A stretch of DNA of 64,000 nucleotides. Origin: SAR202 cluster bacterium. Its GTDB lineage: Bacteria > Chloroflexota > Dehalococcoidia > Lucifugimonadales > Lucifugimonadaceae. Below are positions 21,467-28,069 of the stretch, piece by piece (the first letter of the stretch is position 1; every line of letters begins with the position of its first letter). The position numbers and the translations under genes are program-made. The notes under the pieces were generated by a model. It made no database searches and was not told where the DNA came from. It saw nothing but the letters and a program-made list of their open reading frames with translations. The DNA lies in the NCBI GenBank assembly GCA_008373205.1, contig RQOS01000060.1:1-64000 (forward strand), in the 5' to 3' direction.

Positions 21467-21646
21467 ATGATTCGAATAAAAATAATTTTATTCATTCTAA
21501 TAATGCTAGGTATTTCATATATTTTAGATAGATTAACTCGTTCAAAATTTGATGATAAGAAAAGCTTAAGGTTTATTTTTTTCTCGACTGTTCTTTCATC
21601 TTCAGCTTTGATAATCGCGTTTGTTTTGTTCTACCTTATTTCATAA
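21467..21646 (+). CDS. Small hydrophobic protein, 59 aa (below ORF-track cutoff)
   Basis: Manual translation MIRIKIILFILIMLGISYILDRLTRSKFDDKKSLRFIFFSTVLSSSALIIAFVLFYLIS; two predicted TM segments. Confidence 0.4.
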   Translation: MIRIKIILFILIMLGISYILDRLTRSKFDDKKSLRFIFFSTVLSSSALIIAFVLFYLIS

Positions 21647-21709
21647 TTATAAATCTCTTTTTTACCAAAATGTTAGAAATTAAGATAAACTAGAGTAAGG
21701 TAAATTAAA

Positions 21710-21763
21710 ATGAATAAGAATTATTACACATATTATTATTTTAGGCTAACAGAGTCTTTTTAA
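21710..21763 (+). CDS. Tyr-rich leader peptide MNKNYYTYYYFRLTESF (17 aa) of a putative attenuator
   Basis: ATG AAT AAG AAT TAT TAC ACA TAT TAT TAT TTT AGG CTA ACA GAG TCT TTT TAA, with taagg upstream. Five Tyr plus a Phe in codons 5-11, followed by a terminator and a DAHP synthase gene. Confidence 0.85.
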   Translation: MNKNYYTYYYFRLTESF

Positions 21764-21787
21764 TTGTGTAATTTTTACCAAGTACTT

Positions 21788-21816
21788 AAAAGGCTCTCAT
21801 AAAGAGCCTTTTTTTT
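21788..21816 (+). terminator. Attenuator intrinsic terminator upstream of DAHP synthase
   Basis: aaaaggctct (21788-21797) / agagcctttt (21803-21812), perfect 10-bp stem, 5-nt loop, T tract to 21816. Confidence 0.92.
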
Positions 21817-21849: not shown

Positions 21850-22896
21850 ATGAAAAATATACAGAACTTAAATATAAGAGAAATAGCGAAGCTACCATCT
21901 CCTGATGAATTTATAAAAAATATTCCATTATCAAACTCTCAGTCAAACTTAATTATGGAATCAAGAAAAGTTATAGAAAACATCTTAACTGGTAAGGACG
22001 ATAGGATATTATTGTTGGTTGGTCCTTGCTCTATTCATGATAGAAATCTAGGTATAGAGTATGCAAAAAGGCTTAGAGATTTAGCGGAAAAAGTTAAGGA
22101 TACTATATATATTGTAATGAGGGTCTACTTTGAAAAACCTAGAACAACTGTAGGTTGGAAAGGTCTAATCAATGACCCTGATCTTAATGGATCTTTTAAT
22201 ATTCCAAAAGGAATAGAACTAGCAAGAAATATATTATCAGATGTTACAGAATTAGGTATGCCTACTGCCACTGAATTTCTAGACCCATTTACTCCACAAT
22301 ATATTGGAGATTTAGTTTCTTGGGGCGCAATTGGAGCCAGAACTGCAGAAAGTCAAACTCATAGACAAATGGCAAGTGGATTATCAATGCCTATAGGGTT
22401 TAAGAATGGTACCGGAGGATCAGTTCAGTTAGCTATAGATGGCATGATTGCCTGTTTAGGAGAACATGCATTTTTAGGAATAGATAATGATGGCAATAGT
22501 TCAGTTGTAATAACAAAAGGTAATCCTGCTAATCATGTAATTCTTAGAGGTGGTGCATCAGGAACAAATTATGATAAAGAATCAGTAAGAGATGCACAAG
22601 AACTATTAGAAAAAAACGAACTAGATCCTGTTGTTGTTATAGATTGTGCTCATGGTAATTCAAATAAGGATCATAATAGGCAGCCTATTGTATTTAAAGA
22701 TGTTATATCTCAAAGAATGCAAGGTAATAAAAATATCGTTGGCCTTATGATCGAAAGTAATATAAATCCTGGTAACCAAACTCTAGGAGAAAATTTAGCT
22801 GATCTAGACTATGGAGTATCTATAACAGATAAATGTGTAGGTTGGGAAAAAACTGAAGAAATTATTTTAGAAGCTAGTAAAGAATTAAAGAATTAA
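21850..22896 (+). CDS. aroG: 3-deoxy-7-phosphoheptulonate (DAHP) synthase, AroF/G/H type
   Basis: LLVGPCSIHDRNLGIEYA, VMRVYFEKPRTTVGWKGLINDPDLNGSFNI, WGAIGARTAESQTHRQMASGLSMPIGFKNGT. Confidence 0.96.
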   Translation: MKNIQNLNIREIAKLPSPDEFIKNIPLSNSQSNLIMESRKVIENILTGKDDRILLLVGPCSIHDRNLGIEYAKRLRDLAEKVKDTIYIVMRVYFEKPRTTVGWKGLINDPDLNGSFNIPKGIELARNILSDVTELGMPTATEFLDPFTPQYIGDLVSWGAIGARTAESQTHRQMASGLSMPIGFKNGTGGSVQLAIDGMIACLGEHAFLGIDNDGNSSVVITKGNPANHVILRGGASGTNYDKESVRDAQELLEKNELDPVVVIDCAHGNSNKDHNRQPIVFKDVISQRMQGNKNIVGLMIESNINPGNQTLGENLADLDYGVSITDKCVGWEKTEEIILEASKELKN

Positions 22897-22911: not shown

Positions 22912-23844
22912 ATGAAAAGTTTTGATCAACAATTAATTGAACTTTCAAAATTAATCGGAAAAAATAAAACAGCTTTTTGTATAGGCACATTTGATGGAGT
23001 TCATTTAGGCCATAAAATGTTATTCCAACAATTAGTTAACAATTCTAAGAATAATAAATTAAGTTCCTTAGTAATCGTTTTTGAAAAAAGACCTAGAGAA
23101 ATAGTAAGCAAAGGATACTCAAGGCCATACCTATCAGGCTTTTGTAAAAGAAAAAATAAAATCTTAGAAAATGAGATAAATTTTTTGTTTACTATGGAGT
23201 TTAATGATGAACTGAGAGTTCTAAGTGCAGAAGTCTTTCTAAAGAAACTGATAAGTCACGCAAATATAAAAAGCATTGTTGTTAGCGAAAATACAAGAAT
23301 TGGAAATGATCAGTTGTTTGGTAAAAATTTAGAGGATTTATGTATCAGTTTAGGAATAGAAATATCTAACATAGAAATGAAAAATAATTTAAAAAAAGTG
23401 ATCTCTTCTTCAATGATCTCAAAATTTATAGAAGAAGGAGATTTTATAAATGGTAATAAATTTTTAGGTTATGATTATACTTTTGAAGGTATGGTTGTTA
23501 AAGGAGATCAGATTGGAAGAACTATAGGATTCCCAACTGCAAATATAGAAGTTCAGAATGAAATCCAAATTCCTGGAGATGGTATTTATGCATGTATGGT
23601 AGATATTGAAGGAGAAAAATTTAGAGGTGCCCTTTCTATTGGAAATAGGCCTGTAATAAAAAATGATTCTGCAAGAAAAATAGAAGTTTTTATATTTGAT
23701 TTTGATAAAAATATATATGGTATTCAAATAGAGATTTCAGTTATTCAGAAAATAAGAAATCAGGAATTTTACGATTCTATAGATATTATGAAGACACAAA
23801 TAAAAAAAGATATTATAAATATTAATGAAGTTTTAGAAAGATAG
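22912..23844 (+). CDS. ribF: Bifunctional riboflavin kinase/FAD synthetase RibF
   Basis: CIGTFDGVHLGHKMLF, GDQIGRTIGFPTANIE, SIGNRPV motifs. Confidence 0.93.
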   Translation: MKSFDQQLIELSKLIGKNKTAFCIGTFDGVHLGHKMLFQQLVNNSKNNKLSSLVIVFEKRPREIVSKGYSRPYLSGFCKRKNKILENEINFLFTMEFNDELRVLSAEVFLKKLISHANIKSIVVSENTRIGNDQLFGKNLEDLCISLGIEISNIEMKNNLKKVISSSMISKFIEEGDFINGNKFLGYDYTFEGMVVKGDQIGRTIGFPTANIEVQNEIQIPGDGIYACMVDIEGEKFRGALSIGNRPVIKNDSARKIEVFIFDFDKNIYGIQIEISVIQKIRNQEFYDSIDIMKTQIKKDIININEVLER

Positions 23845-23845
23845 T

Positions 23846-25141
23846 ATGAATAATCAATTTAATAACGTAATTGAAGAATTTAGATGGAGAGGTAGCCTTA
23901 AAGATTACACAACCAACGCAGACTCAATTTTGATCAATGAAAAAATTACTTGTTATAACGGCTTTGATCCCACAGCAAAAAGTCTACATATTGGAAACTT
24001 GATACCAATACTAGGATTACAAAGATTACAAAAATATGGTCATACACCTATCGTCATTGTTGGTGGAGGAACAGGAATGATCGGAGATCCTTCAGGAAGA
24101 ACTGATGAAAGAAAGTTAATGAGTGAAGCATTAATAGAAGAGAATCTTGCAGGAATAAAAGGTCAGTTAGAAAAATTTTTAGATTTTGATAATAAAAAAA
24201 ATCCAGCTCAGATAATTAATAATGCTGAGTGGTTAAATCAAATCAACCTAATTGATTTCTTAAGAGATACTGGTAAATTTTTCAACATTAACAATATGCT
24301 TGGTAAAGATTCAGTAAAAAATAGATTATCTAGAGATGAAGGCATTTCATTTACAGAATTTAGTTATCAATTATTACAAGCTTATGATTTCTTGTATTTA
24401 TTTGAAAATTATAATTGCAGCTTCCAAATGGGAGGATCTGATCAATGGGGAAATATAGTAGCTGGTATTGACCTAATTAGAAAGAAAAATCCATTAAATA
24501 AGAATAAGGCTCATGGAATAACTTACCCTCTATTAACCACATCCTCTGGTGAAAAATTTGGTAAAAGTATAGATGGAGCAGTAACCTTAGATCCAAATGT
24601 AACAATTCCTTATAAACTTTTTCAATATTTTTATAATACTAGTGACGATGAAGTATTGGATTATATAAAGTTATTTACTGACATTAACATTGAAGAATTC
24701 AACGAACTAGAAAAAATAACATTAGAATCACCATATAAAAGAGAAGCTCAACTATTTCTTTCAAAAGAAATTACACGAATAGTTCACGGTGAAAAAGGAA
24801 TGAATAGTGCACTTAGGCAAACAGAAGGACTCAATCAAGGGAAATGGGAAATCTTAAGTGATGATGATTTTTCTGATTTATATATTGGTTCAGAAAGTAT
24901 AAATCAGCTTTCAAGAAAAAAATTATCTAATGGAGTAAACATACAAGAACTGACTGTTGACTATGACTTATGTAAATCTTTAGGTGAGTCAAAAAGACTA
25001 ATTAACCAAGGCGGAATTTCATTAAATGGAAACAAAATAACAGATCCAGAAATGAAAGTATTTGAAAATGACCTTAAAGCAAATAAAATATTGATTATTT
25101 CAAAAGGTAAAAAAAATCATAAAATAATTAAAGTTGATTGA
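23846..25141 (+). CDS. tyrS: Tyrosyl-tRNA synthetase
   Basis: TCYNGFDPTAKSLHIGNLIPI, GGGTGMIGDPSGR, FQMGGSDQWGNI, KFGKS, C-terminal S4 domain. Confidence 0.97.
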   Translation: MNNQFNNVIEEFRWRGSLKDYTTNADSILINEKITCYNGFDPTAKSLHIGNLIPILGLQRLQKYGHTPIVIVGGGTGMIGDPSGRTDERKLMSEALIEENLAGIKGQLEKFLDFDNKKNPAQIINNAEWLNQINLIDFLRDTGKFFNINNMLGKDSVKNRLSRDEGISFTEFSYQLLQAYDFLYLFENYNCSFQMGGSDQWGNIVAGIDLIRKKNPLNKNKAHGITYPLLTTSSGEKFGKSIDGAVTLDPNVTIPYKLFQYFYNTSDDEVLDYIKLFTDINIEEFNELEKITLESPYKREAQLFLSKEITRIVHGEKGMNSALRQTEGLNQGKWEILSDDDFSDLYIGSESINQLSRKKLSNGVNIQELTVDYDLCKSLGESKRLINQGGISLNGNKITDPEMKVFENDLKANKILIISKGKKNHKIIKVD

Positions 25142-27979: not shown

Positions 27980-28069
27980 GGAGGGGTGGCTGAGTGGTTG
28001 AAAGCGTCTGTCTTGAAAACAGGAGTATCCGTAAGGGTACCGCAGGTTCGAATCCTGTCCCCTCCGCCA
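27980..28069 (+). tRNA. tRNA-Ser (anticodon TGA), CCA encoded
   Basis: ggagggg...cccctcc acceptor stem, long variable arm, anticodon loop cttgaaa, ggttcgaatcc T-arm, terminal gcca. Confidence 0.95.

Follow-up and report, generated by a model that had tools for sequence, protein, structure and literature searches.

What controls the DAHP synthase gene at 21850 to 22896 of this SAR202 contig, and does the short interval in front of it sense tyrosine? The question was raised by a first-pass annotation of the window, the whole 64,000-nt stretch of DNA analysed here, which is taken from a 1.33-Mb draft genome of 66 contigs. That annotation read positions 21710 to 21816 as a leader peptide gene followed by a terminator, working by ribosome-mediated attenuation. 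The analysis described below leads us to much the same answer, and we put the probability at roughly 80% that the element attenuates transcription in the trp/phe/his manner, by reading the charging of tyrosyl-tRNA. To judge from its sequence, the attenuator would very probably turn on an operon of DAHP synthase, ribF and tyrS when tyrosine is short.

The leader and the genes around it

The features of the locus, all on the forward (+) strand, are the following.

21697 to 21700, +: AAGG, probable Shine-Dalgarno of the leader ORF by sequence, 9 nt 5' of the ATG
21710 to 21763, +: leader ORF MNKNYYTYYYFRLTESF, ATG at 21710, 17 codons, TAA at 21761-21763
21722 to 21742, +: control codons Y5 Y6 T7 Y8 Y9 Y10 F11, with T-Y-Y-Y invariant in the genus
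21723 to 21730, +: segment 1:2 outer (protector) helix, 5' arm attacaca, partner 21765-21772 in the predicted fold
21743 to 21747, +: inner 1:2 helix, 5' arm AGGCU, partner AGUCU at 21753-21757 in the predicted fold
21751 to 21760, +: segment 2, antiterminator strand AGAGTCTTTT, with the core GAGTCTTT identical across all nine genomes
21765 to 21772, +: outer 1:2 helix, 3' arm tgtgtaat, from the predicted fold
21788 to 21797, +: segment 3, terminator 5' arm AAAAGGCTCT, with segment 2 as alternative partner
21803 to 21816, +: segment 4, terminator 3' arm AGAGCCTTTT (21803-21812) and U-tract, from the sequence and a terminator scan
21850 to 22896, +: DAHP synthase (aroFGH type), TIGR00034 at 480.7 bits against a cutoff of 173.2
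22912 to 23844, +: ribF, riboflavin kinase/FAD synthetase, TIGR00083 above cutoff
23846 to 25141, +: tyrS, tyrosyl-tRNA synthetase, TIGR00234 at 367.8 bits against a cutoff of 113.8

When the letters were read back, the coordinates that the first-pass annotation had given for the leader ORF, the terminator and their pairing proved correct to the base, as did its positions for the Tyr and Phe codons and the 24 nt that separate the stop codon from the terminator stem. Codons 5, 6, 8, 9 and 10 of the leader specify Tyr and codon 11 specifies Phe, and the five Tyr residues within codons 5-10 form a cluster of pathway end-product codons. The terminator lies between the leader and the DAHP synthase gene and consists of a perfect 10-bp stem, a 5-nt loop and the sequence TTTTATT (one site in the terminator scan of the locus, versus 0.0 expected); the competing pairing of 21751-21760 with 21788-21797 is present as described. 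The leader region folds with a z of -4.2, and no shuffle was equally stable. In the predicted fold, a longer 1:2 hairpin contains the 8-bp helix of the annotation as its outer section (UUACACA/UGUGUAA) together with an inner helix (AGGCU/AGUCU), and the inner helix sequesters part of the antiterminator strand. A consensus scan for a sigma-70-type promoter just upstream of the leader found none, and no excess over shuffles.

DAHP synthase is the first gene of the putative controlled operon; gaps of 15 nt to ribF and 1 nt from there to tyrS follow it, and the three genes are probably transcribed together. Two of these genes, DAHP synthase and tyrS, have products that make or use Tyr, and the presence of tyrS in the same gene cluster as DAHP synthase strengthens the attenuator reading. 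In 70 of 74 genomes of the family the two are linked, lying on one strand at a distance of 0.9-2.3 kb. Upstream of the leader lie trpA and a gene for an AroH-type chorismate mutase. A 59-aa hydrophobic ORF (21467-21646) separates the chorismate mutase gene from the leader; a similar ORF occurs in the two closest relatives (L003, L004), and none was seen in L005-L010, which have the chorismate mutase gene directly 5' of the leader. The only tRNA gene in the 64-kb window is a tRNA-Ser (anticodon TGA) at 27980-28069, just after polA.

Conserved codons and conserved pairing

To be counted by our detector, a locus must have an ORF of 8-65 codons with at least five Tyr or Phe residues, including two Tyr, within 8 residues, and an intrinsic terminator that begins 15-170 nt after the start of the Tyr/Phe cluster. 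On both strands of the 64-kb window, the element at 21710-21816 was the only match. A leader precedes the DAHP synthase gene in all nine genomes of the genus (protein identity 68-100%), and the detector placed an intrinsic terminator after it in each. The nine leaders are MNKNYYTYYYFRLTESF (found twice), MNKNYYTYYYFRLAESF, MKIKNYTYYYFRHLESF, MNIFFNTYYYIKT, MKKFFYTYYYFRT, MKTKFYTYYYFFERLESL, MKTEFYTYYYFFERLESL and MKQFI.TYYYFRR. A short ORF with in-frame Tyr codons is kept in 9/9, and the in-frame run Thr-Tyr-Tyr-Tyr is invariant, while the other residues vary and the stop codon shifts.

The RNA is conserved in a different manner. The segment 2 core, GAGTCTTT, is identical in the nine genomes even though its reading frame differs between species, and in three of them (G002, G003 and G004) it lies past the leader stop and out of frame. 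Such invariance beyond the end of the ORF argues that the core is kept as RNA rather than as peptide, and by this sequence comparison the two constraints are separable, one on codons upstream and the other on RNA pairing downstream. Pairs were counted on the named segments, and every cell was paired both in the 2:3 antiterminator core (72/72) and in the 3:4 terminator core (72/72), counts that are not independent because several of the nine genomes are close relatives. Segment 3 itself varies (AAAGGCUC, AAAGGUUC, AAAGACUC), and each variant stays completely paired with either partner, segment 2 or the segment 4 of the same genome. The first-pass annotation had tied its reading to conservation in relatives of the Tyr codons and of the 21751-21760/21788-21797 complementarity, and both are kept in all nine genomes.

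Covariation of the helices had been raised as a check. The 3:4 stem has one compensatory change, G-C to A-U, in G005 and G008. The outer 1:2 helix pairs at 6 to 9 of 9 positions in seven species and is weak in G005 and G008, and the complete 1:2 hairpin appears in the predicted full fold of 7/9 genomes. A compensated synonymous change once claimed for this helix in G005 and G008 was not upheld and has been dropped, the best register there pairing only 6/9 positions.

Two rival readings can be weighed against the same material. The interval might hold nothing more than an ordinary terminator in the gap that separates the trpA-aroH genes from the DAHP synthase operon, with the ORF as an AT-rich by-product; the region is indeed AT-rich, as are Tyr, Phe, Asn and Lys codons, and a terminator by itself would be unremarkable. 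We consider this very unlikely, as 1800 dinucleotide shuffles made from the upstream regions of the genus never gave both a Tyr/Phe-cluster ORF and a terminator, the in-frame Tyr codons are invariant in 9/9 genomes, and the same kind of leader is found in much less AT-rich genomes of other families. Still less probable is a TnaC-like leader peptide, in which arrest would depend on the peptide sequence and a small-molecule ligand instead of uncharged tRNA. Such a device would suit the GC-rich genera of the same family, whose longer leaders repeatedly end in YRS or YSS and where no U-tract terminator was seen, but in the source genus the C-terminal residues of the peptide vary and the position of the stop codon shifts, which fits a device that reads codons rather than peptide.

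A proposed mechanism and its probable effector

The conserved elements can be placed in the following scheme, whose coupling, stalling and direction of response we infer. RNA polymerase and a ribosome would travel together along the leader. A shortage of charged tRNA-Tyr would make the ribosome stall at codons 8-10, cover segment 1 and break the 1:2 hairpin; the freed segment 2 (21751-21760) could then capture segment 3 (21788-21797), so that no terminator forms and DAHP synthase, ribF and tyrS are transcribed. With plentiful charged tRNA-Tyr, the ribosome would reach the stop codon and mask segment 2, allowing 3:4 to form. Once the ribosome is gone, segment 2 would be held by the 1:2 hairpin and 3:4 would again form, and the hairpin would account for termination without a ribosome. 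In either of these last cases transcription should stop near 21816.

Simulated folding is consistent with this scheme. When a stall was imposed on the Tyr codons and the transcript reached no further than segment 3, the 2:3 antiterminator was predicted in 9/9 species; for a ribosome sitting on the stop codon the prediction was the 3:4 terminator, again in 9/9. When segment 4 had also been made in the stalled RNA, most species thermodynamically favoured 3:4, which means that the antiterminator would have to win kinetically, before segment 4 emerges. In classical attenuators, antitermination is likewise decided before segment 4 emerges. In almost all the traits open to sequence analysis, the locus appears to match an attenuator of the trp type, a class defined functionally by read-through that depends on starvation; the 1:2 hairpin is weak in two species. 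The annotation's proposal of ribosome-mediated attenuation gains further support from conservation, from the presence of tyrS in the cluster and from similar leaders in other families. An element of the riboswitch or T-box type that works without translation can be set aside as scarcely probable: alternative terminator and antiterminator structures are typical of such elements, but an Rfam search that covered the 64-kb window together with 11 related loci returned nothing at gathering score except one tRNA in the window, with no match to the T-box family model at the leader locus, and the conserved ORF would stay unexplained.

The same attenuator could instead sense Phe, or Phe and Tyr jointly, like aroR of C. 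glutamicum. A Phe codon directly follows the Tyr run in 8/9 species, some leaders have extra Phe codons, and clusters in other families hold 58 Phe beside 107 Tyr. Furthermore, aroR (Phe-Tyr-Phe), one Tyr-bearing DAHP synthase leader that has been tested, responds to Phe only, going by the data of Neshat et al. 2014 as summarised in PMC11802643. We nevertheless regard sensing of Phe as improbable, though less so than the three alternatives above, for T-Y-Y-Y alone is invariant, G002 has Ile in place of the Phe, and tyrS lies downstream in the gene cluster. Codon content favours Tyr over an aroR-type response to Phe. The annotation's claim of Tyr sensing is favoured both by codon content and by tyrS linkage, and Tyr, rather than Phe or the two together, is the probable effector.

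Related leaders and known attenuators

The survey was widened to the DAHP synthase upstream regions of 80 genomes that belong to the same order but to other families. The strict detector found a Tyr/Phe-rich leader with an intrinsic terminator in 29 of them, and gave no match in 1600 shuffles. Examples are MIENYFTYYYYFKKKGRIIAFR (L179), ...GYYRPFYFYAYRS... (L187 and relatives), ...SYEYYYYFTGT... (L212) and ...YNYFTYYYFGS... (L219), and the leader clusters total 107 Tyr, 58 Phe and 6 Trp. In the stretch that separates leader from terminator, the terminator 5' arm finds a better complement than it does in shuffles (Fisher combined p ~3e-12, uncorrected for phylogeny). The leaders of these families differ in sequence and need not share one ancestral leader. 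Similar terminator 5' arms (ACCCCAGYCG-like) recur across families, in L197, L199, L200, L207, L211, L215, L220 and others, which suggests either common descent or a preferred terminator sequence. Linkage to tyrS as a general companion of the leader outside the family was considered and is unsupported, with positions judged by eye: in leader-bearing families such as f6 and f34, tyrS is on other contigs or far off, and in f19 it is nearby and a leader was not detected.

Closer to the source genus, a longer leader ORF is found in the GC-rich genera of its family, in the 300 nt before DAHP synthase (g9: L012, L014, L016, L017, L019, L020, L022-L024, L028-L031; g8: L044, L045, L051, L053, L056, L066; g2: L015, L025, L032-L034, L050). 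These leaders share a recurring aromatic C-terminus, for example YTGGLFTYGRSYRS and YFTRGHLYSS, their stop codons interchange in frame, and a predicted hairpin spans the stop codon; after it comes C-rich, G-poor sequence with no evident U-tract, possibly a Rho-dependent version of leader control. A codon-position test for peptide selection on the leaders of these genera was equivocal. In the AT-rich genera of the family, no leader was recognised upstream of DAHP synthase (g4: L039, L040, L043, L046, L055, L059, L063, L065, L067; g5: L057, L064, L069, L071; g6: L011, L062). In g4, a TATAGTATT-like sequence stands just 5' of the DAHP synthase ATG and could reflect a leaderless transcript. A tentative extension, which we think may well fail, is that tyrosyl-tRNA-sensing leaders control the first aromatic step throughout the order (Chloroflexota, Dehalococcoidia) while the termination device varies, from intrinsic terminators in the source genus and several other families to C-rich, U-tract-free and possibly Rho-dependent sequences in the GC-rich genera of the same family.

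Attenuation by leader peptides is on record for Trp, Phe, His, Leu, Thr, Ile/Val and Cys, and the known examples of control by tyrosine are mainly TyrR and T-boxes. In the Tyr T-box upstream of Firmicutes tyrS, the charging of tRNA-Tyr controls terminator formation. In pheL-pheA, pheST and trpL, the control codons are in segment 1, the stop codon is near segment 2, and a 2:3 antiterminator competes with a 3:4 terminator in a four-segment logic. A literature search found no Tyr-responsive leader-peptide attenuator documented in open-access full text, and no such attenuator in Chloroflexota in open-access papers. With no Tyr-responsive case and no Rfam match, the locus would represent a known mechanism with a specificity not found documented; specificity and phylum are apparently new. 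If the reading is true, a conserved Tyr leader over a DAHP synthase-tyrS cluster adds an amino-acid specificity to attenuators and extends them to a lineage that has received little study and is represented mostly by draft metagenome genomes, besides offering a concrete, testable hypothesis of regulation. The first-pass annotation had called such a leader unfamiliar, which holds for a response to Tyr and does not hold for leaders of DAHP synthase genes, since aroR and the Acholeplasma aroF motif are precedents.

The source leader shares its four-segment logic, 2:3 versus 3:4, with E. coli pheL-pheA, pheST and trpL, which are listed as attenuated operons in PMC11802643, and differs from them in that their control codons are Phe or Trp instead of Tyr. 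The DAHP synthase genes of E. coli are described there as subject to TyrR/TrpR repression. Tyrosine T-boxes (mentioned in PMC1262725) differ by binding tRNA directly and having no leader ORF. The closest parallel is aroR, found upstream of the aroF (DAHP synthase) operon of C. glutamicum (PMC11802643; PMC4046766), where again a leader peptide containing both Tyr and Phe precedes the DAHP synthase genes and control is by ribosome-mediated attenuation, as proposed for the source leader. Unlike the source leader, aroR as summarised in these sources has only Phe-Tyr-Phe, responds to Phe and not Tyr, and is actinobacterial, and the portions consulted do not mention tyrS, which is in the cluster here. 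The uORFC-13-1 motif of Acholeplasma aroF is also a predicted uORF with an intrinsic terminator upstream of a DAHP synthase gene, but it has a U-run encoding Phe, is predicted only, and is a different motif in another phylum (PMC8632094). Finally, the predicted uORFC-8-2 attenuator of Rhodobacterales cysS similarly sets cognate codons before an aminoacyl-tRNA synthetase gene; its codons are Cys and the synthetase gene is directly downstream, whereas here the synthetase is third in the cluster (PMC8632094).
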